The translations under genes were made by a program, and so were the position numbers. From a virus, in IMG/VR virus record IMGVR_UViG_3300027734_000231, positions 1-30,300 of that record: 30,300 bases of DNA; one strand, given 5' to 3'. This document shows positions 2,194-21,510 of this stretch, one piece after another (position 1 is the first letter of the stretch; the number at the start of each line of letters is the position of its first letter). The notes beneath the pieces were generated by a model, which was not told the origin of the DNA, did not search any database, and saw only the letters and a program-made list of their open reading frames with translations.

Positions 2194-4461
2194 ATGGCTA
2201 TATCTGATGCAATGCGCTACAGGATGAGTACAGGTGGTTCTGCTGAAGACCTTTACGCAACAATCCGTGATTTCTTAGCTACAAATCCTAATGCAGCCGC
2301 AACTCAATCAGCTATGGCTCAGTATGGTATTTCTGGTGAAGACGTAGCTAATGCAACTGGTGGAAAATCTGGTGGTTTGCTAAGTGGCAATATTCTCTCA
2401 GGTGCTAGTTGGAATAGCCTTAATACTGCATTGCCAGAACAACTAACACAAGCAACTGGACAGGCCACTACAAATGTGGCTGTAGGCGGTGCAACTACTG
2501 CTGACACTCTTAATCAATTAAATACTTACTTGGCAGGTGGTGGTCAGTTTGACCCTAACGCTACTGTATTCTTACAAACAGGTGGAGTTGATTTTCTACA
2601 GGGAGTTGATAAAGGAACTATCAAAGACAACATAAGCCAGATTGTTAAAACTTTGGGTGACCAAGGTGTTAATGTTGTCCTTACTGGTTCTCCTTATGCT
2701 GCGTCTATCAATGATGTGGTAACAAACAACTTTGACCCTAAAGTTGACCCATTGTTTAACGAGATTGCAAAAGAAAATAAGAATGTTGCTTTGGTAGGTA
2801 CTCAGGGTGAGATTCTACAAAACAAGAAGTTGTTAGTGGATGCTTTGCATACTAACGCTGAAGGCACTGCAATCTACAATCAATCAGTTATTGATGCTTT
2901 GTCTCAGTTTAAGAATGATGTCCCATCTAGTACACCAAATGCAATTAAACAAGTACAAACATCTAACGTAGTTGCGACTACACCTGCACAGATTACACAG
3001 ATAGCACAAACTGGACAGACTATGCCTGTAATACCAACTGCTAGAGGTAGAGTTATCGAAGGCGATAACATCGAACAACAAATTGCTGGTGTTCCCCAAG
3101 TTGTTTATGAAACACGAGTTGACCCAAACAACAAGGCTAATTGGCAGACAGTTAATCCTAAAACTGGCGAAGTAATTGATTCTGGTACTTTTGCAGGTGG
3201 TGGTGACCAAGGCTTGTTAGCCGCATCTCGTCCTGTTCTGGCTTTGGCTGCTAGTGTTCTTGGTGCGCCTTATTTAAGCAATCTAATTGCAGGTTCTACT
3301 GGTTTAACAGGTTCTGCTTTGGCTGGTGCTACAGGCGCAACCATTGCGGGTGGTTCTACTGCTTTAACAGGTGGTAGCGCAGAAGACACGCTAAAAGCCG
3401 CATTGCTTGGTGGTGGTGGTGCGTATGCAGGTAGTGCATTGAATAATTATATTAACTCATTGGACGTTCCTGTTGACTTTACCAACATGACACCAGCGCA
3501 GATTGCTGATGCAACTGAGACAAACTTTATCAATGACTTGAAAAAAGCAGGTTTGTCAAATGCTCAGATTGATGACTTTATTACCAATTCTGGTGGTACT
3601 GCTCTTGCGACACCAGTTGCGGTTTCAACACCAGTTACGGATGGTGGTACTGTTGCAATTACAGGCTCTGCACCACCATCATTAAGTAGTGTATTAAACA
3701 CAATAGCCACAATACCAGATGCAGGAACTGTTAAGGTGGAAGCACCAAAACAAGTTGACCAACAAACATTAAATGCTATAAATAACGCATTGATTACAAA
3801 TGCACCAGAAACTGTAAAAATTACTGGTGATAGACCACTTACAGCAGACCAAGTAGTGAATTTATTGGCAACAACTCCTGTTTCATCTACTGTTTCTCCT
3901 GCCGTAACACAACCAATTCCACAGCAAACTATTATTGCTGAAAGACCATCAAGCATTACAGATGCGGTAACTGCTGCAACAATTCCGTTAATTCAGCCAA
4001 CGACACCATTAGAAGCACCAAAAATAACTGCTGAAAAACCAAAAGAGACTGACCCAATTAAGATTGCTCAGTTGGCTTTGTCTGCTGCTGGTTTGCTTGG
4101 TGCAGGTGCTGCTTTGTCTAATACAGGAACATCAACTGGTTTTGACATTGTGCCTATTCCAGAGGATTGGACAACTCCTCCAAAACCAACTGCTGCACCA
4201 TTTACTGCATTGCCTCTAATTAACTTTGGTGACAGAAACTTACTTATTGGTACTCAATGGGAGAAGTTCCTAGACCCCAACTATGGCAAAGTACCAGAGC
4301 CAGTTAAGTATTCACAACCATCAAACATGAGTTACAACGACTTGATGAGCATTTTGGGTAGCAAGCAAGGTATGCCATCTAGGTCTAGTTTGAGTATCAA
4401 TGACATTATTTCTGGAATACAAAACCAATATGGACAAGCACCTGTTAGCACAATGGGCTAA
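2194..4461 (+). CDS. Large virion-associated protein with degenerate SGNH-hydrolase-like domain
   Basis: The protein is 755 residues and sits between portal and scaffold. Residues ~62-235 follow the SGNH/GDSL hydrolase layout. GNILSG (65-70) falls where block I GDSLS belongs, GGATTADTL (98-106) resembles block II, TGGVD (129-133) takes the place of GGND, and DALH (216-219) matches the Asp-x-x-His of block V. The nucleophilic Ser and the oxyanion Asn are thus replaced while Asp216 and His219 remain. Residues ~330-415 form a Gly/Ala-rich hydrophobic region, typical of membrane-active ejection proteins. Residues ~440-640 are Thr/Pro/Ala-rich with repeated 'KITAEKPK/VKITGDRP' units. The last 110 residues are a compact, probably folded tail. 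Role is inferred: structural or ejection protein, with the SGNH-like part binding or processing a surface glycan ester, or serving only as scaffold. Confidence 0.6.
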   Translation: MAISDAMRYRMSTGGSAEDLYATIRDFLATNPNAAATQSAMAQYGISGEDVANATGGKSGGLLSGNILSGASWNSLNTALPEQLTQATGQATTNVAVGGATTADTLNQLNTYLAGGGQFDPNATVFLQTGGVDFLQGVDKGTIKDNISQIVKTLGDQGVNVVLTGSPYAASINDVVTNNFDPKVDPLFNEIAKENKNVALVGTQGEILQNKKLLVDALHTNAEGTAIYNQSVIDALSQFKNDVPSSTPNAIKQVQTSNVVATTPAQITQIAQTGQTMPVIPTARGRVIEGDNIEQQIAGVPQVVYETRVDPNNKANWQTVNPKTGEVIDSGTFAGGGDQGLLAASRPVLALAASVLGAPYLSNLIAGSTGLTGSALAGATGATIAGGSTALTGGSAEDTLKAALLGGGGAYAGSALNNYINSLDVPVDFTNMTPAQIADATETNFINDLKKAGLSNAQIDDFITNSGGTALATPVAVSTPVTDGGTVAITGSAPPSLSSVLNTIATIPDAGTVKVEAPKQVDQQTLNAINNALITNAPETVKITGDRPLTADQVVNLLATTPVSSTVSPAVTQPIPQQTIIAERPSSITDAVTAATIPLIQPTTPLEAPKITAEKPKETDPIKIAQLALSAAGLLGAGAALSNTGTSTGFDIVPIPEDWTTPPKPTAAPFTALPLINFGDRNLLIGTQWEKFLDPNYGKVPEPVKYSQPSNMSYNDLMSILGSKQGMPSRSSLSINDIISGIQNQYGQAPVSTMG

Positions 4462-6686: not shown

Positions 6687-7001
6687 ATGCAAAACCCTGT
6701 TAAATTTAGAGATTCTGTAGTCCATGCTGATGGCGATGGCGGTATTGTTATTGAAACTACACAAGACATTACAGACATTATTGAGCAGAACAAAAAGGAA
6801 TATAACTCCTTTGATGAACGTGCTAAATGGTCTGATGATTTGTTTGGTAACAAAATAGCTTCTATTCCATTTACAGTCATTGACGAACTAAATAAGCAGG
6901 GAGTTATGCGTGGCTTTGATGTGATTGATGAAAAACGATTCAAGGCATGGCTAAACGAGCGTGATAACAGAGTTTTTAGAACTCGGACAGGAGTTGTATG
7001 A
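6687..7001 (+). CDS. Conserved hypothetical protein, neck region
   Basis: A 104-residue, charged, soluble protein between the capsid gene and the head-tail adaptor. It contains ITDIIEQNKKEY and a C-terminal FKAWLNERDNRVFRTRTG segment and shows no recognised domain. There is no Shine-Dalgarno sequence before the ATG, and an apparent -10 box ends 6 nt upstream, so the message may be leaderless. The stop codon overlaps the adaptor start (ATGA), so the two are co-translated. Genes in this slot are often minor head or neck proteins; the function here is unknown. Confidence 0.7.
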   Translation: MQNPVKFRDSVVHADGDGGIVIETTQDITDIIEQNKKEYNSFDERAKWSDDLFGNKIASIPFTVIDELNKQGVMRGFDVIDEKRFKAWLNERDNRVFRTRTGVV

Positions 7002-7618
7002 GTTTTGCTACCTACTCTGACTTACAGACCTCAATAGGAAACTATTTGGCTAGGTCTGACTTAACTTCTCAGATTCCAGACTTTATTACATTTGCTGAAA
7101 ACCGACTCCGTAGAGAGTTGCGTATTCGCCAGATGTTGAAATCTGTAACGACTGCGACTGTCAAGGATGATGCTACTGTTGAATTGCCTAGTGACTTCTT
7201 ACAGGTGCGTGATTTTGTAGTGGTAACTAATCCACTCACGCCATTAAGTTACTCAAGCCCTTCAGCATTGTCTAATGACCCAAGGGCACTGTGGGTAGGT
7301 GTTCCTAGGTCTTATACAATCTTGGCTAATGACTTTCAATTGTCTCCTATCCCTGATGCAGTCTACACAGTAAAAATGTTGTACTTTGCTGCACCAGCAT
7401 ATTTGTCTAGCAGTAACACAACAAACGTATTTTTAACTTCAGCACCAGATGCTTTGCTCTATGCTTCTTTGATTGAAGCTGAGCCTTATCTAATGAACGA
7501 TGCTCGAATCAATACATGGGGAACTATGTACGATAGAGCAATTGGTTCTCTCACCAAGTCTGACGAAGAAGGTCAGTATTCTGGTGTTCCTTTAGCAATG
7601 AAACTAACTCCAAGGTGA
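6998..7618 (+). CDS. Head-to-tail adaptor (SU10/podovirus type)
   Basis: A 206-residue protein with the adaptor pattern. The N-terminus MSFATYSDLQTSIGNYLAR is followed by DFITFAENRLRRELRIRQM and a mid-region VELPSDFLQVRDF. The C-terminal helix LLYASLIEAEPYLMND ends in a WGTMYDRAIGSL segment. Such proteins form the ring under the portal that connects to the tail. The gene overlaps the previous one by 4 nt (ATGA) and follows capsid genes in the expected order. The assignment is by family resemblance; the exact subfamily is not certain. Confidence 0.78.
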   Translation: MSFATYSDLQTSIGNYLARSDLTSQIPDFITFAENRLRRELRIRQMLKSVTTATVKDDATVELPSDFLQVRDFVVVTNPLTPLSYSSPSALSNDPRALWVGVPRSYTILANDFQLSPIPDAVYTVKMLYFAAPAYLSSSNTTNVFLTSAPDALLYASLIEAEPYLMNDARINTWGTMYDRAIGSLTKSDEEGQYSGVPLAMKLTPR

Positions 7619-18794: not shown

Positions 18795-19055
18795 ATGGAA
18801 CATAACCAAGATGTCGTGGGTAAATTAACCTATTCTGTAACCTTAATGGTTGCTTCAACTCTTTGTTTATCAGTGCTTGGCATGGTTGCGGCTTTCCTAC
18901 TTGGCTTATGGGCTAAGGAAGTTGACAATGGCGAAATCTTTTCCATGCTTCACCCTGCTTTCCAAACCATCATTGGTGGCTTTATTGGCCTCTTGGCGGG
19001 TGTCAAACTTTCTCATGGTGATAGTCACCATAAATGCAAACATTGTGAGGACTAA
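18795..19055 (+). CDS. Two-TM holin-like protein with His/Cys-rich tail
   Basis: An 86-residue protein with two transmembrane segments (about residues 13-39 and 52-71) and short polar ends, the class II holin form. The tail HGDSHHKCKHCED carries His74, His78, His79, Cys81, His83 and Cys84, a possible metal- or redox-sensitive element. AAGGA precedes the ATG by 5 nt. It lies 2 nt before a second holin candidate. It may be the holin, an antiholin or a small inner-membrane protein. Confidence 0.6.
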   Translation: MEHNQDVVGKLTYSVTLMVASTLCLSVLGMVAAFLLGLWAKEVDNGEIFSMLHPAFQTIIGGFIGLLAGVKLSHGDSHHKCKHCED

Positions 19056-19057
19056 TC

Positions 19058-19552
19058 ATGCTTGATATTCTTTCTGGTGGACTACTAGGCTCTATCTTTG
19101 GTGGCATCTTTAGGATGGCCCCAGAAGTCTTAAAGTGGTTGGATAAGAAAAATGAACGCCAACATGAACTCAATATGTTCAAGTTCCAATGCGACTTGGA
19201 GGCTCAACGTGGTCAGCAGAAGTTAGCTGAGATTGGCGCACAAAGAGAAGCTGCTATTGACGTAGGTGTGATGGATGCTTTCAACAACGCCATTACACAG
19301 CAAGCAGAGATGGTTAAAGCCGCTGGTGGATGGGTAGCCTCACTTTCTGCTTCTGTACGTCCTGTGGTCACCTATTGGGTTTTGTTTGTTTGGTCATTTA
19401 TCCATGTTTGGTTTGCATGGAACGCTTGGTTAGCGGGTGCGCCAGCTACTGAAGTTTTCAAAACAATGATGACTCCAGACTTTTCTGCTTTGCTCTCAGG
19501 AACTATTAACTATTGGTTTCTTGATAGAACTCTGTCTAAGCGTGGCATATGA
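19058..19552 (+). CDS. Holin, GTA_holin_3TM-like
   Basis: A 164-residue protein. The N-terminal hydrophobic part is SGGLLGSIFGGIFRMAPEVL. A charged coiled coil (KKNERQHELNMFKFQCDLEA...) spans residues ~30-75. Two membrane segments follow: SVRPVVTYWVLFVWSFIHVW and, near the end, SALLSGTINYWFLDRTLSKR. The 'RPVVTYW ... GTINYWFLDRTL' pattern matches the 3-TM holins first described in gene transfer agents. It should open the inner membrane for the lysozyme encoded next door, whose ATG overlaps its stop. Confidence 0.75.
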   Translation: MLDILSGGLLGSIFGGIFRMAPEVLKWLDKKNERQHELNMFKFQCDLEAQRGQQKLAEIGAQREAAIDVGVMDAFNNAITQQAEMVKAAGGWVASLSASVRPVVTYWVLFVWSFIHVWFAWNAWLAGAPATEVFKTMMTPDFSALLSGTINYWFLDRTLSKRGI

Positions 19553-19992
19553 ACTTAGAACTGGCTGCATCTTTATGTAAGCAGTTTGAGGGGTTTAGAA
19601 GTAAACCCTACCTTTGCCCTGCTAACGTAGCTACGATTGGTTATGGCTCTACCTACTATGCTGATGGGCGTAAAGTTACCCTTCAAGATAGTCCCATAGG
19701 TGAAGACGTAGCCAATGCTTTGCTTATGCACGAGTTAGAACATACATACTTACAGGGTGTTCTAAGGAACTGCCCTATCCTTATGACAGATGAAAAGAAG
19801 TGCAATGCTATTGTGGACTTTTGCTATAACTTAGGTATTGGCAGACTCCAGACCTCTACTCTCAAGCGGAAAATCAATGCCCAAGATTGGGAAGGCGCAA
19901 AAGAACAACTGATGCTGTGGAATAAAGGCGGTGGTAAAGTTCTAGCAGGTCTGACAAAGCGCAGAGTTGCTGAGTGTGCCTTGTTAAATTAA
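19549..19992 (+). CDS. Endolysin, GH24 lysozyme
   Basis: A 147-residue peptidoglycan muramidase. The catalytic set Glu14-(8)-Cys23-(5)-Thr29 is exact for the 'E-8aa-D/C-5aa-T' lysozyme family, with the block QFEGFRSKPYLCPANVATIG and YGST after it. DFCYNLGIGRLQTSTL and LAGLTKRRVAECALL are the usual downstream family parts. There is no signal or SAR helix, so it stays in the cytoplasm until the holin fires. The start overlaps the holin stop (ATGA). Confidence 0.93.
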   Translation: MNLELAASLCKQFEGFRSKPYLCPANVATIGYGSTYYADGRKVTLQDSPIGEDVANALLMHELEHTYLQGVLRNCPILMTDEKKCNAIVDFCYNLGIGRLQTSTLKRKINAQDWEGAKEQLMLWNKGGGKVLAGLTKRRVAECALLN

Positions 19993-20022: not shown

Positions 20023-20391
20023 ATGCCTAACATTCCTACACCAGAAGATGCCATACACTTCGCACAAAGTGTAAAAAAATGGCAGCAAGTGCTAAGTCTT
20101 GGTGATTGGAGAATTGAGAAGGGCATGAAGCCAGCTAAAGCGGCTATGGCATCTGTTGAGTTTACCCCTGCTGCAAGGCTTGCTGTTTATCGACTTGGAG
20201 ACTTTGGTGCTGAAAAAATAACACCTGATTCGTTAGACAGAACTGCTTTACATGAGTTGCTTCACATTTTTCTGCATGACTTGATGTGTGTAGCTACAGA
20301 CCCTAAGTCTTCTGATGAGGAAAAAGAGATGCAAGAGCATAGAGTTATCAATCTGCTAGAAAACTTACTCTCTAAGGATTCCAATGGGTAG
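20023..20391 (+). CDS. HExxH metallopeptidase-like protein
   Basis: A 122-residue protein with DRTALHELLHIFLHDLM (HELLH at 77-81), a zinc-binding HExxH with the catalytic Glu between the histidines. Glu105-His106 in MQEHRVINLLENLL could be the third ligand. The small size and YRLGDFGAE segment resemble SprT-like/phage-encoded minimal zincins. No signal peptide is present, so it acts in the cytoplasm or virion if active. Its end overlaps the phosphoesterase start by 8 nt, implying joint translation. The substrate is unknown. Confidence 0.68.
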   Translation: MPNIPTPEDAIHFAQSVKKWQQVLSLGDWRIEKGMKPAKAAMASVEFTPAARLAVYRLGDFGAEKITPDSLDRTALHELLHIFLHDLMCVATDPKSSDEEKEMQEHRVINLLENLLSKDSNG

Positions 20392-21370
20392 TCATAACGA
20401 AACGTGTAGCGATACCGAGTTTATCCAACTATGGGGTCAACTTCAGTCTGCACAAAAAATAGCTGAGCATCTTGGTATAGCAAATAGAGCAGTTCATTTA
20501 CGCAGAAGGTATATTGAGAAAACATACAATATGGCACTTCATGCAAGTGACCATCGGGGTGTTAAATACGATAAAAACAAACCAAAGTCATTTAGTCCAC
20601 TCAAGCAAATAGAACTTGGCATATTAGACGGAACAGTTATTGTGTTCTCAGATGCTCACTTCATTCCTGCACAGCGTACAACAGCCTTTAAAGGGCTTCT
20701 ATGGGCTATCCAAGAGTTCAAACCCAAGGCGGTGATATGTAACGGAGATGCGTTTGATGGTGCGTCTATAAGCCGACATGACGTAACTGAACAACCAGCG
20801 ACTACTGTTATCCAAGAGTTAAAAGCCTGTCAGGGCGCATTGGGTGAGATTGAGGAAGCCGCTAAAGCAGCGAGGCACAATGTAAAGCTACTGTGGACAT
20901 GGGGCAATCACGATGTTAGGTTTGGCAATCGACTTGCTCAACACGCACCACAGTACAAAGAAGTATTAGGCTTTAAGCTGACAGACCATTTCCTTGATTG
21001 GGATTTCTGTTGGGCGGTATGGCCTACCGAGGATGTGATTATCAAACATCGTTACAAGAATGGAATTCATGCCACTCATACGTCAACCCTCAATGCGGGA
21101 GTTTCAACTGTCTGTGGGCATCTACACGCCTTAAAAGTCACGCCATTCGCAGATTTACGAGGAAATCGTTTTGGGGTCGATTGCGGAACATTGGCTGAAA
21201 TTGATGGCCCTCAATTTACTTATGCTGAACTAAACCCAAGCAATCATAGGTCAGGCTTTGCGGTGCTAAACTTCTTTAATGGCAGACTATTGTGGCCTGA
21301 GTTGGTTCACAAGTTTGACGAAGACCACATAGAGTTCCGTGGAGAAGTCATTGATGTAGGTGCGTTTTGA
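20384..21370 (+). CDS. Calcineurin-like metallophosphoesterase with N-terminal HTH
   Basis: A 328-residue protein. Residues ~10-48 (QLWGQLQSAQKIAEHLGIAN... then RAVHLRRRYIEK) read as a helix-turn-helix. The catalytic domain has all the metallophosphoesterase signatures: FSDAHF (Asp90, His92), ICNGDAFD (Asp122), WTWGNHDVR (Asn175-His176-Asp177), and CGHLHALK (His246, His248). Such enzymes cut phosphodiesters, commonly DNA ends. DNA processing is likely because of the HTH. It follows the metallopeptidase-like gene, with AAGGA 5 nt upstream of the ATG. The position among late genes, away from the replication block, is unusual. Confidence 0.8.
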   Translation: MGSHNETCSDTEFIQLWGQLQSAQKIAEHLGIANRAVHLRRRYIEKTYNMALHASDHRGVKYDKNKPKSFSPLKQIELGILDGTVIVFSDAHFIPAQRTTAFKGLLWAIQEFKPKAVICNGDAFDGASISRHDVTEQPATTVIQELKACQGALGEIEEAAKAARHNVKLLWTWGNHDVRFGNRLAQHAPQYKEVLGFKLTDHFLDWDFCWAVWPTEDVIIKHRYKNGIHATHTSTLNAGVSTVCGHLHALKVTPFADLRGNRFGVDCGTLAEIDGPQFTYAELNPSNHRSGFAVLNFFNGRLLWPELVHKFDEDHIEFRGEVIDVGAF

Positions 21371-21510
21371 GTGCTTGGCTAATCATCTTAACTGGTGCTA
21401 TCTACGCCTATATTGCTGGTGAACAGCTATGGAAAGATAACCCACACATGGCTATCGTGTACGCAGGGTACGCCTTTAGCAATGTGGGGCTTTATCTGTT
21501 GGCAAAGTAG
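21367..21510 (+). CDS. Small conserved membrane protein (47 aa)
   Basis: A TTG start overlaps the previous stop (TTGA) and begins MSAWLIILTGAIYAYIAGEQ. A central polar loop and a second hydrophobic part (AYAGYAFSNVGLYLLAK-like) follow. Two short membrane segments are likely. Small proteins with this WLI-LTG-IY-Y-A-EQ pattern recur in phages with similar late genes. The function is unknown. It is the last + strand gene before convergent genes begin 2 nt later, with no visible terminator between. Confidence 0.6.
   Translation: MSAWLIILTGAIYAYIAGEQLWKDNPHMAIVYAGYAFSNVGLYLLAK

Follow-up and report, generated by a model that had tools for sequence, protein, structure and literature searches.

The window, as the whole stretch of DNA analysed here is called, is a fragment of 30,300 bases from a virus record whose completeness is not stated, and its longest listed ORF, of 807 aa, encodes a tail fibre. 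Two overlapping ORFs, both starting with ATG and encoding a small zincin-like protein (MP) and a calcineurin-like phosphoesterase with an N-terminal helix-turn-helix (MPE), were found on the plus strand at exactly the positions and with the 8-nt overlap claimed for them in an earlier sequence-only reading. The features of the locus are as follows.

18795..19055, plus strand: holin-like ORF (phrog_1527, E 0.00097)
19058..19552, plus strand: phrog_6637 protein of the lysis region, with no function assigned by PHROG
19549..19992, plus strand: phage lysozyme (PF00959, 3.9e-34), directly 5' of MP
20023..20391, plus strand: MP, small zincin-like protein of 122 aa, with HELLH at 77-81 and an invariant EHxxxNxxE at 105-113
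20374..20378, plus strand: AAGGA, Shine-Dalgarno-like, inside the MP gene and 5 nt 5' of the ATG of MPE
20384..20391, plus strand: overlap of the MP and MPE reading frames, 8 nt
20384..21370, plus strand: MPE, HTH-calcineurin-like phosphoesterase of 328 aa, with helices at 10-48 and the phosphoesterase domain at about 83-320
21367..21510, plus strand: ORF of 47 aa with two hydrophobic stretches, a TTG start and a 4-nt overlap with the stop of MPE

As MPE is preceded by an AAGGA of its own, translational coupling to MP by reinitiation may occur, but need not. The position of the pair behind a lysozyme was confirmed, with a PF00959 gene directly upstream and the holin-like ORF further up; a HELEH within this lysozyme (19549-19992) was discarded as a zincin candidate, being a mere motif match. 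The description of the site as far from the replication block was only partly right, as downstream of the pair the MazG and Erf genes start on the minus strand about 0.4 kb and 1.4 kb away, respectively, and the gene for the replication protein lies on the plus strand at about 3.4 kb. Therefore, with MazG and Erf close by, the pair is not far from genes of DNA metabolism. Strand and neighbouring genes suggest that MP and MPE would be expressed late. Elsewhere in the window, a 755-aa protein encoded at 2194-4461, adjoining the portal gene, was matched by the GDSL-lipase domain (PF00657, 1.3e-5) and, weakly, by PepSY.

When MP was compared with Pfam and the PHROGs, no family was matched. A model built with an alignment of 27 sequences (pLDDT 94.1) consists of one long helix, three strands, a helix at 68-92 in which the HELLH is placed, and a C-terminal helix at 98-120. 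In a Foldseek search of this model against the PDB the first five rows were four of selecase and one of SPRTN, the best selecase row having an E-value of 2.4e-3 and a probability of 0.99, and no row reached E 0.001. Among the rows listed by VIA-align, in which a Z below 8 is weak when taken alone, 14 had a Z of at least 5; five of them were of selecase (5.8-6.7), and the further listed rows comprised TTHA0227 (6.7), abylysin and jannalysin (5.8), a predicted zincin (5.6) and two of SPRTN (5.1-5.2), with Wss1 next at 4.4, together with three rows of an unrelated mycobacterial transcriptional regulator (5.1-5.3). The zincin fold was thus called from the motif and the run of zincin rows, not from Z alone.

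At the sequence level, weak matches were obtained to projannalysin (E 0.2 and 0.29), whereas rows such as L3MBTL and a ribosomal protein in the PDB sequence searches were taken as noise. None of the 10 families listed for 27 MP members was the SprT-like PF10263, and M78/IrrE-like matches (PF06114) were found for 6 of the 27 at E ≤1, weak in all cases (best 0.046). HExLH and EHxxxNxxE are kept in 186/186 and in 80/80 relatives, and E105 and E113, both invariant and located on the helix at 98-120, are candidates for the third zinc ligand. For the metallopeptidase proposed from the sequence alone, a zincin-like fold could therefore be modelled, and invariant glutamates are candidates for the third ligand. 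By its model, MP appears to be a mini-zincin of the selecase/SPRTN-like kind, and it would act as a protease.

MPE matched PF00149 with 30.1 bits (gathering score 21.5), a family also matched by all of the 49 members of the MPE family tested, the window protein included (E ≤0.1). It carries all five calcineurin motifs (DxH at 90-92, GD at 121-122, GNHD at 174-177, H222 and GHxH at 245-248), the metal ligands D90, H92, D122, N175, H222, H246 and H248 being kept in 82-83 of 83 alignment rows. In the model (pLDDT 89), N-terminal helices at 10-20, 23-30 and 34-48 are followed by a weak stretch at 57-70, which links them to the phosphoesterase domain and where pLDDT falls below 50 at 57-64 and 66-70. 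The three helices, a weak match to HTH_23 in 5/49 members (best 0.0063) and the conserved arginines R35, R40 and R41 (kept in 76, 78 and 80 of 83 rows) underlie the reading of this part as an HTH, through which MPE probably binds DNA. The match of MPE to phrog_221, a family of phage metallo-phosphoesterases (E 2e-25), begins at residue 66 and leaves the HTH outside.

The fold of the phosphoesterase domain was less informative regarding its substrate. The top Foldseek rows were Mre11-DNA and LpxH, with LpxH, YfcE and Rv0805 among the top structural matches, and the best row listed by VIA-align was PolD DP1 (Z 14.5 over 201 residues, 2.9 A). In fact, PolD DP1, LpxH, YfcE, Vps29 and Mre11 tie at Z values of about 13 to 14.5, within about 1.5 Z of each other. 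As the nuclease types (Mre11, PolD DP1 and the P. putida MPE) are not separated from LpxH, YfcE and Vps29, the fold gives no substrate for MPE.

How firmly the two genes are linked was assayed on loci fetched by similarity to MPE or its partners, the best 80 per scan; families beyond the similarity reach of these proteins fall outside this sample, and some contigs repeat, an effect limited by clustering at 70% identity. MPE was found in 413/417 collected records, and these 413 form 82 clusters at 70% identity; each of the other four has MP, with no more than about 0.25 kb of sequence after it. In a first round, with partly redundant records since some contigs were fetched twice, both genes were present in 157/161; the exceptions were three distant loci with MPE but without MP (L002-L004) and one that ends just behind MP (L159). 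The reading frames of the 157 overlapped by 8 nt in 141 cases, by 2 nt in 15 and by 14 nt in one. Taking MP as reference, MPE was present in 186/190 records, the remaining four having at most about 0.25 kb of sequence left after MP, and for divergent MP relatives (the best 80 of 176, representing 16 clusters at 80% identity) MPE lay directly downstream in 79/80 loci, the remaining one ending at MP itself. Cut contigs aside, MP without MPE beside lysis genes was not found in the fetched loci. Chance pairing or an artefact of overlapping ORFs was discarded, as relatives of the two proteins turned up in 377 and 420 stretches, and both genes are present in the loci retained. Thus, the pair is not rare, all the exceptions to the presence of MPE beside MP lie at contig ends, and the linkage is one-sided: the zincin is optional for MPE, whereas MP was seen without MPE only on cut contigs. 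A survey of 369 bacterial genomes of one class yielded a single match, the seed genome itself.

The MPE family was also found beside peptidases of other kinds. When any member of a cluster was counted, with a limit of 250 nt on the same strand, an adjacent zincin was detected in 30/82 MPE clusters: SprT-like in 20 (17 downstream, 3 upstream), MP in 7, always upstream, and M78-like in 3. Under a stricter rule, requiring a cluster majority and a limit of 100 nt, the number was 27. An HslV-like peptidase was near MPE in 5/82 clusters, in two of them beside SprT. The other 49 clusters showed none of the peptidase families sought, in a search made with three profiles and three HExxH cases that could miss other peptidases; in 6 of the 82 clusters every member has less than 450 nt on at least one side of MPE.

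As a control, the adjacency of HExxH ORFs of 70-260 aa (within 100 nt, same strand) to MPE was compared with their adjacency to other ORFs of at least 200 aa in the same loci, revealing 25 cases for the 82 best-flanked MPE representatives against 5 for 253 control ORFs, which are mechanical ORFs and not called genes (Fisher p 1.2e-12). Two of the five control matches are MPE-adjacent zincins viewed from the other side, and the other three look spurious. In the reverse test with the SprT-like partners, MPE was upstream in 78/80 loci (within 100 nt in 75), and the two loci that lack it begin no more than 200 nt from the end of a contig; this set, the best 80 of at least 331 relatives, leans towards the link, as it was seeded from neighbours of MPE and forms only 4 clusters at 70% identity. 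In 16 long contigs from clusters without an adjacent zincin, neither SprT nor MP was detected anywhere, one of them (L313) having an M78-like ORF 619 nt from MPE; among 12 positive control records, the same search recovered SprT in 6 and MP in 3, which were those expected.

Regarding the identity of these partners, 18 of 19 SprT-like members match PF10263 (E ≤0.1, best 5.8e-9), with H77, E78, H81 and H95 invariant, that is, HExxH plus a later His, and the HslV-like partners match the HslV peptidase phrog_1040 (2e-38 and 2e-27). The M78-like label is softer: the partner at locus L174, the only one of them scanned with profiles, matched M78 (PF06114) at E 0.012, below the cut-off, and those at L352 and L374 were assigned from HExxH, size and our own reading. 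Both the SprT-like and the M78-like partners fall in PHROGs without function or in none. In the deposited annotation of one distant record (L002, MW202674) a SprT-like gene at 6948-7292, with a 4-nt overlap with the MPE stop, is missing.

On a quick tree of MPE, in which many branches are weak, the presence or absence of a zincin requires at least 14 changes and the zincin type at least 17; the minimum number of changes that branches with strong support require is 6 for SprT downstream, 3 for SprT upstream and 2 each for MP and for M78-like upstream. Inside the SprT clade, in two places (L215 and L257), an HslV-like gene lies just behind MPE instead. HslV was nevertheless rejected as firm evidence, as its relatives occur in 119 phage records and the copy of Escherichia phage Sciku lies by holins, with no annotated MPE in 6.4 kb. 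We know of no role of HslV-like peptidases as DNA proteases.

The 47-aa ORF behind MPE is too short for the ORF lists, which start at 50 aa, and has no PHROG match. A homologue was found in 154/163 loci of the MPE cluster to which the window belongs, with the same -4 offset in 145, and it may represent a third cistron of the MP/MPE unit. All 19 clusters in which homologues of it were found have a peptidase. In SprT-type phages, however, the homologue usually lies far off and in the opposite orientation (33 cases, against 3 on the same strand), which counts against a zincin-specific third component and suggests that its restriction to peptidase clusters may reflect shared ancestry.

Lysis functions recur around MPE, as within 1.5 kb of it a lysozyme was found in 31 of the 82 clusters, M15 in 9, a family that we take to be GH108-like in 10 and phrog_6637-like genes in 33. 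A small Cys-rich family, which we name zinc-ribbon-like, lies just upstream of MPE in 9/82 clusters (L364, L375 and L389, for example), and a family that we name GNAT-like acetyltransferase adjoins it in 5/82.

Genes of the partner types were also located in named phages. In Methylophilaceae phage P19250A (4016-5160 of the locus), a gene for a distant SprT-like zincin directly precedes a holin gene of the GTA type and one for an M15 peptidase, and in ctXG6705 (MW202481, 3992-6029 of the locus) genes for a likewise distant SprT-like protein, a phrog_6637 protein, a lysozyme and a PolB/RNase H-type exonuclease are consecutive; an MPE of the window type was not found in either stretch, nor in either record at E 1e-5. 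The host strain of P19250A, which has no MPE beside its SprT-like gene, is named. In Sciku (3001-3438 of the locus), the HslV-like gene immediately precedes holin, antiholin and endolysin genes, and in Microcystis phage Mwe-JY26 (2941-3942 of the locus) a small zincin-like gene, related to the phrog_1233 partner found at L174, directly precedes that of the small terminase subunit. Such late settings of SprT-, HslV- and L174-type genes make a general late-operon home for small peptidases a live rival to a specific association with MPE. In a T4-like Vibrio phage, the SprT-like ORF200 and the metallophosphoesterase ORF212 are listed apart, by twelve ORF numbers (PMC13142089).

A second pair, apparently unrelated to the first, was observed in ct7QV12 (MW202713, 3968-5532 of the locus), where a SprT-like gene absent from the annotation overlaps by 22 nt the gene of a 412-aa protein annotated as 'archeal DNA polymerase II'. 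This protein matches the exonucleases phrog_284 (8e-49) and phrog_704 (1e-7) and, in our reading, has MPE-like motifs, with a weak HTH match; Pfam Metallophos was not among its matches, and in a profile comparison with the MPE family of the window only the HTH part was aligned, at 12% probability. The gene that follows is annotated as chitinase A and probably encodes an endolysin. As far as sequence matches go, this single case supports a nuclease reading of MPE. No gene annotated as a peptidase was found in the 7 kb inspected around Bacteroides phage and cyanophage relatives of the ct7QV12 MPE.

Several known systems resemble parts of the pair. MPE has in common with Mre11/SbcD and PolD DP1 the metallophosphoesterase core with all five motifs, at an identity of about 14-18% to Mre11 and DP1, but has an N-terminal HTH where they have their known extra domains. 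Gp54 of mycobacteriophage D29 and the MPE of locus L173 share 27.5% identity, and other mycobacteriophage MPEs are about 26-27% identical to that of the window; D29 gp54 adjoins primase and nucleotide genes, whereas the MPE of the window adjoins lysis genes. The best fold matches of MP are minigluzincins (selecase, abylysin and jannalysin), single-domain proteins of similar size that are archaeal enzymes, whereas MP is phage-encoded and tied to the MPE gene. With SPRTN (SprT-like) and Wss1 (WLM), both proteases of DNA-protein crosslinks, MP has the zincin fold in common, but differs in matching no SprT model, in having the EHxxxNxxE helix instead and in lacking an extra DNA-binding domain; the SprT-like partner of related phages does share with SPRTN the PF10263 domain with HExxH and a later invariant His. 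SPRTN is described as a DNA-dependent protease acting on DNA-protein crosslinks (PMC5127644).

The layout of a small peptidase next to an HTH-bearing protein is common to CapP/CapH, ImmA/ImmR and IrrE/DdrO. In the latter two systems the zincin cleaves its HTH partner. CapP is a peptidase activated by ssDNA that cleaves CapH (PMC13373217); the pair described here differs from CapP/CapH in that the HTH partner is an enzyme with a full phosphoesterase domain, located in a phage lysis region and not in the role of a defence or element regulator. The literature search, in which subscription papers were mostly outside the scope so that novelty is unproven, returned no description of the MP-MPE pair and no laboratory study of a relative carrying it; the accessible parts of PMC10196503, PMC5127644, PMC13373217, PMC13142089, PMC6115819, PMC10459684, PMC12542629 and PMC10783043 do not show it.

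The above results support a joint task for MP and MPE, as was proposed in the sequence-only reading, on the basis of the linkage and of the recurrent gain of small peptidases next to this one MPE family. Neither of the two results named in that reading as refuting it was obtained. The reading is partly supported as a whole, its specific proposals of DNA-end processing with protein removal or of host DNA breakdown being conjectural, and the linkage is stronger than could be known from one sequence. The interpretation that we tentatively prefer, and to which we give somewhat less than an even chance, is that MP and MPE form a conserved module, late by position, in which a DNA-bound nuclease works with a dedicated protease to clear protein-laden DNA. 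MPE, as a metal-dependent phosphodiesterase of the Mre11/PolD-DP1 sort, would sit on DNA through its HTH and cut it, the zincin would remove or degrade protein bound to the DNA being cut, and protein-laden DNA of the phage or of the host would thereby be cleared at the end of infection. This presumes DNA as the substrate, nuclease and protease activities, late expression and a target shared by both proteins, all of which we infer. In its favour, the commonest partner of MPE is SprT-like, which is the domain of SPRTN, and the structural neighbours of MP include SPRTN, Wss1 and minigluzincins; against it count a fold that does not tell the substrate, the 49/82 MPE clusters without the peptidases sought and the distant SprT-like genes found elsewhere without this MPE. 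A bolder version, which we regard as possible but doubtful, is a DNA-debulking machine built on a DNA-bound HTH phosphodiesterase, whose neighbouring peptidase can be exchanged (mini-zincin, SprT-like, M78-like, perhaps HslV-like), in an operon of the lysis stage.

The preferred reading has to be weighed against explanations in which the two proteins do not act together on DNA. The lysis region could simply be a landing place for small accessory genes, the zincin and MPE doing separate jobs within a late operon. The recurrence of lysozyme, M15, GH108-like and phrog_6637-like genes around MPE, that of GNAT-like (5), small Cys-rich (9) and HslV-like (5) genes, and the presence of SprT-like or HslV-like genes in the lysis cassettes of P19250A, ctXG6705 and Sciku without this MPE are what such cargo would produce; but no MP was found beside lysis genes without MPE, cut contigs aside, and zincins adjoin MPE far more often than they adjoin other large ORFs of the same loci, with three kinds of them and on either side. 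We consider the cargo explanation rather improbable. Yet more improbable, although far from negligible, would be an action of MPE on a small molecule, a lipid or a phosphoprotein (LpxH-, CpdA- or phosphatase-like), with the zincin acting on a host envelope or defence protein, to which we assign the lowest probability of all. The HTH arginines conserved across the MPE family speak against it, as does the lack of a PADLOC match for the five proteins tested, while the structural matches to LpxH, YfcE and Rv0805 and the position by lysis genes fit with it; phage calcineurin-like enzymes have also been filed under metabolism, as an auxiliary metabolic gene (PMC10196503) or, for the superfamily in virus contigs, as tied to phosphate metabolism (PMC12542629).

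By analogy, MP could instead control MPE as a protease-operated switch, the zincin cutting the linker between HTH and phosphoesterase, or an HTH-bound repressor, and thereby releasing or destroying the DNA-tethered enzyme. The equivalent layout of CapP/CapH (PMC13373217), the low-confidence stretch at the linker, the need of MP for MPE but not vice versa, and the weak M78/IrrE-like matches of MP are consistent with this. As a mark of cleavage, the length of the linker was rejected: its median was 40 in zincin-paired MPEs vs. 37 in the rest, significant when compared naively (p 2e-5), but the difference vanished on independent pairs of the tree. Moreover, unpaired MPEs also have the HTH and the linker, and MPE is an enzyme and not a plain repressor. 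We hold the switch to be unlikely, less so than the action on a small molecule or lipid but more so than the cargo explanation.

Returning to the nuclease and protease module, the link of such a protease with an HTH phosphoesterase, reciprocal and repeatedly formed, places the two proteins in a testable context, as a two-enzyme module with protein-bound DNA as its possible target. Proteases acting on DNA-protein crosslinks are, to our knowledge, little understood in prokaryotes. If the module does act in this way, it would provide a small phage model for such enzymes and would account for the retention of a nuclease-like gene next to those for lysis; and the debulking machine, if true, would be a viral counterpart of the division of labour between Mre11 and SPRTN.
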